Source: Candidatus Cybelea sp. (GTDB lineage Bacteria > Vulcanimicrobiota > Vulcanimicrobiia > Vulcanimicrobiales > Vulcanimicrobiaceae). Taken from it: a stretch of DNA of 52,813 nucleotides. Under the pieces are notes generated by a model. That model saw nothing but the letters and a program-made list of their open reading frames with translations, was not told the origin of the DNA and did not search any database. Of the stretch, positions 34,000 to 39,423 are shown piece after piece (position 1 is the first letter of the stretch; each line of letters opens with the position of its first letter). Where the stretch lies: the NCBI GenBank assembly GCA_036489315.1, contig DASXFZ010000009.1, positions 1 to 52,813 on the forward strand, read 5' to 3'. Made by a program: the position numbers and the translations under genes.

Positions 34000-34029
34000 A
34001 CTATACCACACACGCCGGCGCGTCTGCAA
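34000..34029 (-). promoter_or_regulatory. Promoter inside the end of metB
   Basis: On the minus strand TTGCAG (34024-34029), an 18-bp spacer and TATAGT (34000-34005, five of six consensus) lie in the last codons of metB. Transcription would start about 3-4 bases before ATG 33989 of the short Tyr-rich frame. Confidence 0.5.
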
Positions 34030-35194
34030 TCCTTCGAAGCGACCCCCGAGTCGAGTCGAGCGCGGCGCCCAGGTCGGCCAGCAAGTCGTCGCCGTCCTCG
34101 ATACCGACGGAGAGTCGCAGGAGATCGTCGCCGATATCGAGTTCGGCTCGTTGCGCCGCCGTCAGCGAGCCGTGCGTCATTCTCGCCGGACTGCAGATCA
34201 GCGATTCGACACCTCCGAGCGAAACCGCCAGAGTAAAGATCGACGTCGATTGGGCGATCGCGTGCGCCCGCTCCACGCCGCCCTTCGGGCGAAAAGAGAC
34301 GATGCCGCCGAAGCCGCGCATCTGCCGGCGCGCCAACTCGTGCTGCGGGTGCGTCACCAGCCCAGGATAGTAGACCTCGGCCACGTCGTCGCGGGCGGCG
34401 AGAAATTCGGCGACGCGCTGCGCGTTCTGCACGTGCGCGCGCATCCGCAGCGCCAGCGTCTTCGTGCCCCGCAACGTGAGGTAGGCGTCCCACGGCCCCG
34501 GCACCGCGCCCACGCAGTTCTGATGATAGGCAATCTGCTCGGCGATCTCGCGCTCGCTGCTGATGACGATACCGCCGACCACGTCGCTGTGGCCGCCGAT
34601 GTACTTCGTGGTCGAGTGCACGACGAGATCGGCACCGAGCGCGAGCGGCTGCTGAAGAAACGGCGAGGCGAAGGTGTTGTCGACCGCGAGCAGAACGCTC
34701 GCCGGACGCGTCCGCGCAAGCTCGGCGATGTCGCAGAGCCGCAAGAGCGGATTGCTCGGTGTCTCGAGCCACAGCAGGCGCGTGTCGGGTCGCGCGGCCG
34801 CCCAGGTCTCCCGTACGTCGCCCGTATCGACGAACGTAACGTCGATCCCGTAGCGCGAGAGCACGGTCGTGAAGAGGCGGTGCGTCCCGCCGTAGATGTC
34901 TCGCGTGGCGACGATATGATCCCCGCTTCGCAGCAGCGAGACCGCTCCCGCAACTGCTGCCATGCCAGAGGAGAAGGCCGAAGCGAAAGATCCGCCTTCC
35001 AGGGACGCGAGCTGGCGTTCCATCGCGCTGCGCGTCGGATTGACCGTACGCGAGTAGTCGAAGCCCTTGGTCACGCCGATCTGCGGCAGCGTAAAGGTTG
35101 CCGTCTGATAGACGGGGACGATCGTCGCGCCGGTCGCGGAGCAGGGATCCTGGCCGCTCCAGATCGCGCGTGTCGAGAAACCGTGGTTCAGCAC
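34001..35194 (-). CDS. metB: Cystathionine gamma-synthase-type PLP enzyme
   Basis: The 397-residue protein is a Cys/Met-metabolism PLP enzyme of full length. Key regions: PVYQTATFTLP, FDYSRTVNPTRSAMERQLASLEGG, FSSGMAAVAGAVSLL, ETPSNPLLR, VDNTFASPFLQQPLALGADLVVHSTTKYIGGHSD with the PLP Lys197, and the C-terminal SLGGVESLICSPARMTHGS with LLRLSVGIED. It joins O-acyl homoserine and cysteine to cystathionine, or sulfide to homocysteine; the family cannot be split further by eye. GTG 35194 overlaps the metX stop by seven bases. Last gene of hom-metX-metB. Cystathionine beta-lyase is not in the window. Confidence 0.93.
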   Translation of the reverse strand: MLNHGFSTRAIWSGQDPCSATGATIVPVYQTATFTLPQIGVTKGFDYSRTVNPTRSAMERQLASLEGGSFASAFSSGMAAVAGAVSLLRSGDHIVATRDIYGGTHRLFTTVLSRYGIDVTFVDTGDVRETWAAARPDTRLLWLETPSNPLLRLCDIAELARTRPASVLLAVDNTFASPFLQQPLALGADLVVHSTTKYIGGHSDVVGGIVISSEREIAEQIAYHQNCVGAVPGPWDAYLTLRGTKTLALRMRAHVQNAQRVAEFLAARDDVAEVYYPGLVTHPQHELARRQMRGFGGIVSFRPKGGVERAHAIAQSTSIFTLAVSLGGVESLICSPARMTHGSLTAAQRAELDIGDDLLRLSVGIEDGDDLLADLGAALDSTRGSLRRIADAPACVV

Positions 35195-36177
35195 GAAATG
35201 CTCCCAACTGCGGCCAAAGACGGCCGCGCGATGCGGGTTTTCAAAAGCGCGGCGAGCTCGTTCGATTCGGCCAGAAACGCATCGTGCCCGTGATCGGAAC
35301 GCAGCTCGAGATAGGCTGCGTCGAAGCCGGCGCGCGCGAAGCGTTCGGCGGCCGCGCGTACGTCCTGTGCGCGGAAAAGCCAGTCAGAGGTGATGCCGAC
35401 GAAGGTAAGCGCCGGCTTGTGCTCCGACGCGCGCCAAACCGCAGGTCGCACGTCGAAGGAATCCATCGCATGCGTTAGGACCGCATAGCTGTCCGGGTTC
35501 ATTCGCCGCTCGAACCGGTCGGCTTGATGTTCGAGGTAGCCTTCGACATCGAAGAAAGGACGGCCGAACCGATCGGAGCGCCGGTCGTGACGGCGCGCGA
35601 GCAGCTCGTCACTCTTGTACGAGAGCATCGCGAGCTTGCGCGCCAAGCGTAAGCCCCGGGCCGGGTCGAGCTCGATCGCTTCACGCTGCAGCGCGTTGAG
35701 GGCGATGCCCATCGCGCTGTGATGATCGTGCGCGCCGACGACGATCGCGCCGCCGACGCATTCCGGTGCGCAGACCGCCCACTGCAGCGCGCGCATGCCC
35801 CCGAGCGAGCCGCCGATCGTGAACGCGAGACGCTCGATTCCGAGCCTGCGCAGTGCGCGCCGCTCCGCGCGAACGATATCGCGGACCGTGATGCGCGGAA
35901 ACGGCTTGCCCGCCGGACCCGTCGAGCCGTAGCAGCCTCCGAGCGCGTTGATGCCGGCGACGCACCACTCGCTGGGATCGAAGAGCGCGCCGAAACCGGC
36001 AATTGCCGGCCACCAGTCCGCTACGCGGCTCGAACCGGTCAGCGCGTGCTCGATCAGCACGACGTTCGATCCGTCGGCGGCGGGCGTGCCGTAGAGCGTT
36101 ACCAGCTGGTCGACCGCCGGCAAGATCTCTCCGCAATCCAGCGGCAACGCGCCGATCGCGACGCTTTCTTCCCGCAT
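35188..36177 (-). CDS. metX: Homoserine O-acyltransferase (MetX type)
   Basis: From ATG 36177 (sharing one base with the hom stop) the product is 329 residues. It shows the MetX pattern: SNVVLIEHALTGSS, INALGGCYGSTGPAGKPFPRITVRDIVRAERRALRRLGIERLAFTIGGSLGGMRALQWA with nucleophile Ser124 in G-S-L-G-G, LSYKSDELL, and SDHGHDAFL with the catalytic His. It transfers an acetyl or succinyl group to homoserine, the committed step to methionine. ATG is supported by TGATG overlap with hom. A long open frame continues upstream to 36825 but is arginine-rich antiphase sequence. Confidence 0.95.
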   Translation of the reverse strand: MREESVAIGALPLDCGEILPAVDQLVTLYGTPAADGSNVVLIEHALTGSSRVADWWPAIAGFGALFDPSEWCVAGINALGGCYGSTGPAGKPFPRITVRDIVRAERRALRRLGIERLAFTIGGSLGGMRALQWAVCAPECVGGAIVVGAHDHHSAMGIALNALQREAIELDPARGLRLARKLAMLSYKSDELLARRHDRRSDRFGRPFFDVEGYLEHQADRFERRMNPDSYAVLTHAMDSFDVRPAVWRASEHKPALTFVGITSDWLFRAQDVRAAAERFARAGFDAAYLELRSDHGHDAFLAESNELAALLKTRIARPSLAAVGSISC

Positions 36178-37310
36178 CACGCGTTCACCAGAGCGCGCGA
36201 TGACGGCACGCTCGTCAGCTCGTCGTCCCAGATGGGATATCCGGGCAGTTCGGCGGCGTGCGCGAGGCGGTTGAAGAACGGATCGACGCGGATCGCCGGC
36301 TCGAGCGAGTTCGTGCGTCCGCGCAGGTCGAATCCGCGCCCCTGCCCCAGCGCGCGCAAGACGCTGACAACGTCGCCGAGGACGGCCGAACCCGTCGCCA
36401 CGCCGCCGGCGCCGGCGCCTCGCAGCACGAGTGCACCCGCGTCGCGTGCGAGGATTTGGACGACGTTCTCCGCACCGGCGGTACGCCCGAACTCGTGATC
36501 TTCGTCCACGAGCACGGGTGCGACCTCGGCGAAGACTCCGTCGTCCGTCCGCAGGGCTGCGGCGACGAGCCGAATCCGGCGACCGAGCATACGCGCCCGC
36601 GCCACGTCGCGCTGCGTCACTTCGGTGATCCCTATGCGCCGGATGCGCGGTGAGATCACCGATCGGCCGAAGGCCAGCTGGGCAATGACCGCGAGCTTGT
36701 GCGCGGCGTCGATGCCGTCGACGTCGTTGGAGGGATCGGCCTCGGCGTAGCCGCATCGCTGCGCCTGCGCGAGCGCTTCGACGAACGAAGCCCCGTCCTC
36801 CATCGCCGAGAGTATCGAGGTGCACGTTCCGTTGACGACGCCGGCGACGCCGAAGACTTCATCGCCGGCGAGCGCCTCATCGAGCGTCCGCAGAACCGGG
36901 ATGGCGCCGCCGACCGCGGCTTCGAATCGGAGCGCAGCGCGGCGCGACGCCGCCAGCGCCTGCAGGCGCGGCCCATGTTCGCCGATCAGGTCTTTGTTTG
37001 CGGTGACGACGTGCCGCCCGCGCTCCAGAGCGCGCTCGACCAGCTCGGCAGCCTCCGTCGTTCCGCCGATCACCTCGATGATCAGATCGACCTGCGGATC
37101 GTCGACGACCGAACGCGCGTCCCGGGTAAATAGCCGTCGCTCGAGCGAATTCGAGCGCTCCTTGAGTGAATCGGCGATCGCGATCGCGCGAAGCTCGTAA
37201 CGAACGCCGCTCCGGCGCTCGATTGCATCGCGCTCTTGGTGCAGACGGTCGGCGACGTTCGAGCCGACCGTTCCGCACCCGAGAAGCCCGACCCCCACAG
37301 TCGTTTTCAT
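36177..37310 (-). CDS. hom: Homoserine dehydrogenase lacking the ACT domain
   Basis: The 377-residue protein reduces aspartate semialdehyde to homoserine with NAD(P)H. G-x-G-x-x-G is at LLGCGTVGSNV (residues 9-19), TANKDL and FEAAVGGAIPVLR follow, and VNGTCTSILSAMEDGASFVEALAQAQRCGYAEADPSNDVDGIDAAHKL is the conserved catalytic block with Lys. Typical bacterial enzymes are about 430 residues with a C-terminal ACT domain; this one ends without it, so threonine feedback is unlikely. ATG 37310 follows AGGAGG. An upstream Met-rich leader and terminator suggest that expression responds to methionine. Confidence 0.95.
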   Translation of the reverse strand: MKTTVGVGLLGCGTVGSNVADRLHQERDAIERRSGVRYELRAIAIADSLKERSNSLERRLFTRDARSVVDDPQVDLIIEVIGGTTEAAELVERALERGRHVVTANKDLIGEHGPRLQALAASRRAALRFEAAVGGAIPVLRTLDEALAGDEVFGVAGVVNGTCTSILSAMEDGASFVEALAQAQRCGYAEADPSNDVDGIDAAHKLAVIAQLAFGRSVISPRIRRIGITEVTQRDVARARMLGRRIRLVAAALRTDDGVFAEVAPVLVDEDHEFGRTAGAENVVQILARDAGALVLRGAGAGGVATGSAVLGDVVSVLRALGQGRGFDLRGRTNSLEPAIRVDPFFNRLAHAAELPGYPIWDDELTSVPSSRALVNA

Positions 37311-37348
37311 GATTTCCCGGCCTCCTGTTTCGATGGGAAAGCGAGGAT

Positions 37349-37387
37349 AAAAGACGCGCCCCCCGCCGTTTTCGGCGAGGGGCGTGT
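37349..37387 (-). terminator. Intrinsic terminator of a met attenuator
   Basis: On the minus strand a 15-bp GC-rich stem (37354-37368 with 37373-37387, one C/A mismatch and one GU pair, loop of four bases) is followed by a T run (TTTT at 37349-37353 region). It ends 38 bases before the hom ATG, with only AGGAGG between, so hom must be read through it. A short GTGAAGCG in the leader end (37417-37424) can pair with CGCTTCAC (37386-37393) at the foot of this stem. Confidence 0.8.
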
Positions 37388-37420
37388 GAAGCGTTTGTTT
37401 GCGAACTTACTCTGCGCGCT

Positions 37421-37495
37421 TCACGACGACCCCGCCGCATGCATCCGCATGCCGTACATCGGGCACATCGTCGGGCTATAGGCAAAGAAAGACAT
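37421..37495 (-). CDS. Met-rich leader peptide
   Basis: A 24-codon frame starts at ATG 37495 and ends TGA 37423-37421. It begins MSFFAYSPT and contains MCPMYGMRM, four Met codons in nine, five Met overall. The inferred promoter puts transcription start at or next to ATG, so the message looks leaderless. A 6-bp hairpin (GCATGC 37437-37442 with 37447-37452) covers the last Met codons, and an intrinsic terminator stands 34 bases after the stop, just before hom. The next genes all make methionine. Reading: the ribosome slows at Met codons when methionyl-tRNA is scarce and frees the operon from termination. The peptide itself need not have another function. Confidence 0.7.
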   Translation of the reverse strand: MSFFAYSPTMCPMYGMRMHAAGSS

Positions 37496-37500
37496 TGCAG

Positions 37501-37536
37501 GTAACTTAACACCGGGGACCCGGGGTGTCAAGTTAC
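37501..37536 (-). promoter_or_regulatory. Promoter overlapping a 13-bp imperfect inverted repeat
   Basis: GTAACTTAACACC (37501-37513) and GGTGTCAAGTTAC (37524-37536) pair at 12 of 13 positions. On the minus strand the repeat contains TTGACA (37526-37531), a 17-bp spacer and TAAGTT (37503-37508), seven bases before ATG 37495. The layout fits a promoter controlled by a repressor that binds the palindrome, giving a leaderless Met-rich peptide. Confidence 0.65.
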
Positions 37537-37908: not shown

Positions 37909-39423
37909 ATGCCTGACAAAAAGCCTAATATCCTCATCCTTTGGGGTGACGATATCGGCATCTGGAACGTTAGCAAGTTCAGCAACGGCATGATGGGGTA
38001 CCGCACCCCGAATATCGACCGCGTCGCGAATGAAGGCGGCCTCTTCACCGACTACTACTCCCAGCAAAGCTGCACGGCCGGACGCGCCTGCTTCATCACC
38101 GGTCAGAATCCGATTCGCACCGGTCTGACAAAAGTCGGAATGCCGGGTGCGACGGTCGGCCTTCAGCCGGAAGACCCGACGATCGCCGAGCTGCTCAAGC
38201 CGCTCGGTTACGCTACGGGTCAGTTCGGCAAGAACCACCTCGGCGACCGCAACGAGTTTCTGCCGACGGTTCATGGCTTCGACGAGTTCTTCGGCAACCT
38301 GTACCACCTCAACGCCGAGGAAGAGCCCGAGCTGCCAGATTATCCAAAAGATCCAAAGTTCAAGGAGACGTTCGGGCCCCGAGGCGTGCTCCATTGCTGG
38401 GCGACGGGCGCCGACGACTCGACGGTCGACCCGCGCTGGGGCCGCGTCGGGAAGCAAAAAATCACCGATACCGGGCCGCTGACGAAAAAGCGCATGGAGA
38501 CGGTCGACGAGGAGATCACCAGCGCCGCGCTCGAGTGGATGGAGAAGCAGGCCAAGGCCGATCAGCCTTTCTTCCTGTGGTACAACTCGACCGCGATGCA
38601 CTTCCGCACGCACGTGGCGGAGAAGAATCTCGGCAAGAGCGGCCAGGACCCGTACAGCGATCGGATGGTCGTGCACGACGAGCAGATCGGCATGATGCTC
38701 GATAAGGTCGACGAGCTGGGCATCGCCGACAACACGATCGTCATGTACTCGACGGACAACGGTCCCGAGAACGACACCTGGCCGGATGGCGCAAACACGC
38801 CGTTCCGCGGCCAGAAAGACTCCAACTGGGAAGGCGGTTGGCGCGTCCCGTGTTTTATCCGCTGGCCCGGTCTCATCAAGCCCGGTTCGGTTTATAACGA
38901 CATCGTTTCGCACATCGACATGTTCCCGACCCTACTCGCCGCCGCCGGCAATCCGAACGTCACGCAGCAGCTCCTCGACGGCTCCAAAGTCGGCGACAAG
39001 AAGTTCAACGTCCACCTCGACGGCTTCAATCAGATCCCGTATTTTGGGGGAGAGAGCAAGGTGAGTCCACGGCAGTCGATCGTTTACTTTAGCGACGACG
39101 GCGAGATCGTCGCCGTACGAGTCGGCGATTACAAGTTCAATCTAGCGCTCCAGCGCGCCACGACGATGGAGCAGTGGGCCGCACCGTTTGAGAAACTGCG
39201 CGTACCGCACATCATGAACCTGCGGCGCGATCCCTTCGAGCGAGCCGACTTCAACTCAAACACGTACTGGGACTGGAGCGTCGATCACGCGCCCCAAATG
39301 TATCTGATGCAGGCGGTGATCGCCGGTCAGATCGCGGATTTCGAAAAGTTCCCGCCGCGGCAAAAACCCGCTTCGTTCAACCTCGACTCGGTCATGGAGC
39401 AAGTAAAGACCCCGCACGGCTAA
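37909..39423 (+). CDS. Sulfatase (CTAGR, formylglycine-dependent)
   Basis: The 504-residue protein has the sulfatase core: NILILWGDDIG with metal Asp14-Asp15, YYSQQSCTAGRACFITGQ with Cys55-Thr-Ala-Gly-Arg59, GYATGQFGKNHLGD with Lys108 and His110, STAMHFRTHV, MYSTDNGPE with Asp-Asn of the metal site, and GQKDSNWEGGWRVP. Cys55 must be converted to formylglycine, and an FGE gene is at 30722. No signal peptide was seen, so the enzyme works in the cytoplasm, in contrast to most sulfatases of this class. Substrate unknown. It is followed by a methyltransferase gene two bases after the stop; TAGGAGA precedes the ATG. Confidence 0.95.
   Translation: MPDKKPNILILWGDDIGIWNVSKFSNGMMGYRTPNIDRVANEGGLFTDYYSQQSCTAGRACFITGQNPIRTGLTKVGMPGATVGLQPEDPTIAELLKPLGYATGQFGKNHLGDRNEFLPTVHGFDEFFGNLYHLNAEEEPELPDYPKDPKFKETFGPRGVLHCWATGADDSTVDPRWGRVGKQKITDTGPLTKKRMETVDEEITSAALEWMEKQAKADQPFFLWYNSTAMHFRTHVAEKNLGKSGQDPYSDRMVVHDEQIGMMLDKVDELGIADNTIVMYSTDNGPENDTWPDGANTPFRGQKDSNWEGGWRVPCFIRWPGLIKPGSVYNDIVSHIDMFPTLLAAAGNPNVTQQLLDGSKVGDKKFNVHLDGFNQIPYFGGESKVSPRQSIVYFSDDGEIVAVRVGDYKFNLALQRATTMEQWAAPFEKLRVPHIMNLRRDPFERADFNSNTYWDWSVDHAPQMYLMQAVIAGQIADFEKFPPRQKPASFNLDSVMEQVKTPHG

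Follow-up and report, generated by a model that had tools for sequence, protein, structure and literature searches.

How might a methionine operon be controlled in an uncultured bacterial phylum, when a tiny reading frame packed with methionine codons lies directly before its genes? The question was raised by a 52,813-nucleotide stretch of DNA (hereafter the window) of Candidatus Cybelea sp. (assembly GCA_036489315.1, contig DASXFZ010000009.1), a member of the Eremiobacterota (Vulcanimicrobiota), in which such a frame precedes hom-metX-metB. An initial annotation, made from the sequence alone, proposed that the frame was part of a methionine-specific attenuator translated without a leader, its start site falling at the ATG. 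Our analyses confirmed the elements on which that proposal rested and supported its interpretation, with two refinements: the leaders carry Cys as well as Met codons, so that "methionine-specific" is too narrow, and the antiterminator is longer than the 8 bp that had been noted and uses the terminator's own 5' arm. The unit is most probably a ribosome-mediated transcription attenuator that senses methionine, and probably cysteine, as charged tRNA, although the start site, the leaderless initiation and the response to Met are inferred from sequence.

The locus

The elements of the unit are all present in the sequence and are collected in the table below. The exact promoter-to-ATG pattern, TTGAC-N14..16-TGnTAnnnT-N7-ATG, occurs only once in the 3.09-Mb genome, at this leader, and the Met codons of this leader alone give P=4.5e-4. 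The pairing of GTGAAGCG with CGCTTCAC is present, but is only the core of a longer alternative helix, formed by GCGGCGGGGTCGTCGTGAAGCG with CGCTTCACACGCCCCTCGCCG. Since methionine operons are often under SAM riboswitches, and the unit has both a terminator and an alternative helix, a SAM- or methionine-binding riboswitch, with the short frame and its Met codons incidental, had to be considered. However, there was no match to any Rfam family in the window at gathering scores, SAM riboswitches and T-boxes included, and no relevant match at E<=10. In addition, the SAM riboswitch RF00162 was found only in distant families of the phylum (f14-f16 in our numbering) and was absent from f1-f3.

Features of the methionine locus in the window
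Feature	Position	Strand	Details
Promoter	37503-37531	-	-35 TTGACA (37531-37526); extended -10 TGTTAAGTT (37511-37503); ATG follows after 7 nt
Leader ORF (inferred leaderless)	37421-37495	-	24 codons, MSFFAYSPTMCPMYGMRMHAAGSS; ATG at 37495, TGA at 37423-37421; control codons Met10, Cys11, Met13, Met16, Met18
Hairpin, possible pause hairpin	37437-37452	-	6 bp, GCAUGC-GGAU-GCAUGC, over the last two Met codons; part of the MFE
Region 2	37417-37437	-	3' end of the leader frame including the stop codon; antiterminator 5' arm
Region 3	37373-37393	-	shared 3' arm of the antiterminator and 5' arm of the terminator
Intrinsic terminator	37346-37387	-	stem 37387-37354, core 37384-37357 (12 pairs, 11 GC); T-rich tail CTTTTATC
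Conserved block	37321-37345	-	CTCGCTTTCCCATC-n-AGGAGG, between terminator and start codon
Shine-Dalgarno of hom	37321-37326	-	AGGAGG
hom, homoserine dehydrogenase	36177-37310	-	PF00742 1.3e-51; NF004976 3.8e-110
metX, homoserine O-acetyltransferase	35188-36216	-	start approximate; NF001209 5e-80, below its curated cutoff
metB-type PLP enzyme (cystathionine gamma-synthase family)	34001-35194	-	PF01053 8.9e-140; best NCBIfam model PRK07811 cystathionine gamma-synthase, 506 bits against a cutoff of 513
Sulfatase gene	37909-39423	+	PF00884; divergently placed next to the methionine operon

Conservation of the leader before hom

The initial annotation had suggested aligning the region upstream of hom in related genomes, and this was done. 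A search of 149 genomes of the phylum found hom in 91 of them, and upstream of hom 38 genomes in 15 genera carry a homologous leader with Met and Cys codons, for example MSRLASSMMMSSMCGMRMHVAGSS, MLRRMTTMCPMCCMPMMHAPRAVVWSET, MFVDRAPMMCSMCRCMQMPTARIVVRSRN and, in another family, MNLTSMSAMMCMCETCMVSHAEARALSK. The Met codons, the ATG-adjacent promoter and the terminator are conserved, the other leader codons vary, and the ATG follows the -10 by exactly 7 nt in nearly all of these leaders, which suggests that their leaderless translation is under selection in this group. Taking one leader per genus, Met is 63 of 389 codons (16%) and Cys 36 of 389 (9%), against 1.6% and 1.1% in seven proteins of the window (P=1e-42 and 1e-21). 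ATG triplets occur 63 times in frame and 5 times out of frame (p=2e-25), which a pure RNA element would not explain, and, together with the absence of any conserved domain between the codons and the terminator, this made the riboswitch reading very unlikely. Cys is kept with both of its codons (TGC 44, TGT 29), although the count of out-of-frame TGY triplets, being inflated by ATG followed by C or T, said nothing about Cys.

The device is not universal in the phylum, as the leader is missing or replaced before hom in some genera. In two genomes the hom promoter is joined directly to the conserved block that precedes the hom SD, leader and terminator being absent either by natural loss or by misassembly; this block lies upstream of hom in many relatives, is kept even where the leader is absent, and was also seen near one of the cysH leaders. 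No hom was detected in four genomes of the window's own genus, although these are 95-98% complete, and they are possible methionine/threonine auxotrophs. A search of 79 hom loci from other phyla for Met leaders gave nothing convincing.

Conservation of the peptide also bore on whether it is the nascent peptide itself that stalls the ribosome in response to an effector such as SAM, as in plant CGS1. The target here appears to lie in the same pathway as plant cystathionine gamma-synthase, and the window's close relatives share the C-terminal residues MRMHxAGSS. Between genera, however, the peptide is not conserved outside the Met/Cys cluster, and the conserved 3' residues coincide with region 2 and the hairpin, which pair as RNA. 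Parallel Leu, Thr, Trp and Cys leaders would each need a separate arrest peptide, and we consider this explanation improbable.

RNA ALTERNATIVES

The terminator region of the window folds at -29.8 kcal/mol (z -4.8), and its stem covaries: 9 of 12 pairs have double changes across 25 leaders, matched by 0 of 500 shuffles. The last codons of the frame plus the bases after the stop (region 2) are complementary to the terminator's 5' arm and foot (region 3), and in the window this antiterminator folds at -29.9 kcal/mol (z -3.4); the two structures are balanced and mutually exclusive. Across 18 genera, region 2 pairs better with its own region 3 than with those of other genera (mean -26.2 against -20.2 kcal/mol, p=5e-5). 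Counting antiterminator pairs in one fixed alignment register showed no covariation above shuffles, probably because the register shifts between genera, and support for the antiterminator rests on energies that allow the register to vary. The hairpin over the last Met codons is paired in 86.7% of cells in 25 leaders, with modest covariation. A region 1:2 hairpin, which would determine the fate of RNA with no ribosome, had some support across genera (p=2.5e-4), but not for the window's own leader.

In a simple masking model, with all RNA upstream blocked, the terminator 5' arm was captured with a mean probability of 0.50 when the ribosome sat on the last control codon and 0.14 when it sat on the stop, the difference being in this direction in 30 of 31 leaders. 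These results bear on a further possibility, that the leader acts mainly on translation of hom (coupling or polarity), as proposed for leaderless poly-Cys ORFs in mycobacteria, with the terminator secondary. Leaderless Cys-codon ORFs do attenuate operons in mycobacteria (PMC9031893, citing Canestrari 2020), and hom has its own SD close downstream. Nevertheless, a strong, covarying intrinsic terminator separates leader and hom in nearly all units, and region 2 targets the terminator arm, not the hom SD, leaving this possibility an unlikely one.

A search on promoter geometry alone

The strongest evidence was independent. A covariance model of the leader, and then a pattern that knows only the promoter and the ATG spacing, were run on the phylum and the family. 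A second hit of the covariance model in the window's genome (contig C57, 24252-24360) proved to be a plain terminator without a leader. The promoter pattern gave 91 hits in 99 family genomes, against 4 for the reversed pattern, and most of the short ORFs it found are followed by a terminator and an amino-acid or sulfur gene, with codons that match the downstream pathway: Met before metB (MNFSAGLMMRMMRTRESGRRCFRSG), Met plus Cys before metX (MSRRLVAMIMAMCAVPRGPV) and metY (MSAHARMMTMAMCCFPRGSA), Cys before cysH (MQYVLCCCPCRCFGDSVGPA), Leu/Val/Ile before ilvB (MFAHNLVLVVVILISRSATDRYGLATA) and leuA (MLVTSLLLLALALVGRSASNRLGLTTA), and Trp/Tyr/Phe before DAHP synthase (MSHTAFGYWYWYTARSVPVR). Leaders were likewise found before a sulfite/nitrite reductase (MFSAHAIMMMCCISPLRGSA) and an SsuA-type sulfonate binding protein (MIFIRDARCCCFGAAPPNRVR), and branched-chain leaders in two further genera use short ILV runs before ilvB (MSGNILILVGLITRHPDFR) and leuA (MNGQAGSIGLLLSGTPSA). 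The covariance model and the hom search added thrC-thrB (MTIFGLAATTTTTTTTLRAFGVGLM), other hom genes with Thr-rich leaders, prephenate dehydratase-DAHP synthase (MAVTSWFYRYFYAECAALRRGRPLP) and EPSP synthase (MRASFWYRSYYGYTEPVSVELGVA).

For 32 leaders from the promoter search, codon content names the gene class in 28 (label permutation p=2e-5), and three of the four misses are Met/Cys exchanges between sulfur genes. The balance moves from Met to Cys along the pathway, with 3.5 Met and 1.0 Cys per leader before metB, 4.6 and 2.4 before hom, and 1.0 and 4.3 before cysH. That the same architecture with other amino-acid codons precedes other pathways counts further against a riboswitch. It also bears on the idea that a Met/Cys/His-rich peptide binds copper or another metal, to which the unit would respond: MCPMYGMRMH and MCCMPMMH may resemble metal-binding motifs, but the downstream genes are those of Met and Cys biosynthesis and sulfur uptake, and leaders for other pathways lack these residues, making a metal response highly improbable.

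Cys-rich leaders of this kind also lie before an AhpC/TSA peroxiredoxin and before an FAD-binding oxidoreductase, suggesting that these are unrecognised members of a sulfur regulon. In five genera, a conserved leaderless 9-codon ORF of unknown function, MLAL-x3-DC, without a terminator, lies just upstream of hrcA-type genes (PF01628, tested in one of the loci). trpE in the window's own genus has no Trp leader within the 650 bases examined; two genomes of another family do have WWWW leaders before trpE, but no adjacent -10 box was found for these, and they may not be leaderless.

A model for control of hom-metX-metB

The simplest account of these findings, and one in which we have high confidence, is ribosome-mediated attenuation of the trp/thr type. 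RNA polymerase is inferred to start at or next to the ATG, and a ribosome to start on the 5'-terminal AUG without a Shine-Dalgarno sequence. When Met and Cys are plentiful, the ribosome would reach the UGA inside region 2 and cover it, the terminator (region 3 with its 3' arm) would form, and transcription would stop before hom. When charged tRNA-Met or tRNA-Cys is short, the ribosome would stall in the Met/Cys cluster, leaving region 2 free to pair with region 3, and RNA polymerase would read on into hom-metX-metB. Met shortage also lowers initiator fMet-tRNA, so leaderless initiation itself could fall, which counts against this account. A Met leader raises a neat question, because the sensed amino acid also starts every protein and initiation and elongation signals may interact. 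In the window, RNA without a ribosome is predicted to form the antiterminator, so failure of initiation, as under severe Met shortage, might also give read-through.

More broadly, it is probable that a whole bacterial family within Eremiobacterota controls amino-acid and sulfur genes by one modular device, a leaderless codon-counting ORF plus terminator, whose codon content is retuned for Met, Met plus Cys, Cys, Thr, Leu/Val/Ile or Trp/Tyr/Phe, and that the methionine version is the first terminator-based ribosome-mediated Met attenuator. The leaders give a readable code in an uncultured phylum, in which codon content predicts the pathway of the downstream gene, and this helps to annotate sulfur and amino-acid genes.

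Comparison with known systems

Methionine operons are textbook cases for SAM riboswitches, T-boxes and repressors, and PMC1262725 lists methionine under the S-box, not under leader-peptide attenuation. Leaders are described for Trp, Leu, Ile/Val, Thr, His, Phe and Cys. Our literature searches found no tested methionine attenuator, although they covered only open-licence papers and an earlier report in a subscription journal is possible. SAM riboswitches resemble the unit in regulating methionine genes and in that they may end in a terminator, but no aptamer match was found here.

The one close precedent is Streptomyces lividans metL (SLIV_29928), which precedes metNIQ and was proposed as an attenuator (PMC8079986). 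It is a leaderless leader peptide, as is inferred for the unit here, with clustered Met and Cys codons (MSTTSDRTPATEATTTPGARCMCRRMCAF; CMCRRMC), but it precedes a Met importer, has no clear terminator, and is an untested proposal from a single genome. The cysteine-responsive leaderless poly-Cys ORFs of mycobacteria (Canestrari 2020, via PMC9031893; candidate leaders in PMC1262725) share with the unit a short ORF and a sulfur amino acid, together with the leaderless translation and the control by codon-dependent ribosome speed that are inferred for the unit. They have a Cys run near the stop codon and no conserved terminator (PMC1262725), whereas Met dominates before hom, the window's leader has a single Cys, its Met codons lie mid-frame, and an intrinsic terminator follows. 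A transcript beginning at the ATG of its leader is also known from S. meliloti trpL (PMC7298713).

Of the classical ribosome-mediated attenuators (the trp, thr, his, leu and ilv leaders), the unit has the short ORF rich in codons of the regulated amino acid, the antiterminator and terminator that share an arm, and the structural operon directly downstream, and the Thr leaders of its relatives (e.g., MPALCVIMTTTITTTTTLGEGRSGSTSA) look like thrL. It differs from them in that region 1:2 pairing was not supported for the window, in its occurrence in Eremiobacterota, in its control of Met/Cys genes, and in a leader that is inferred to start at the RNA 5' end with no SD.
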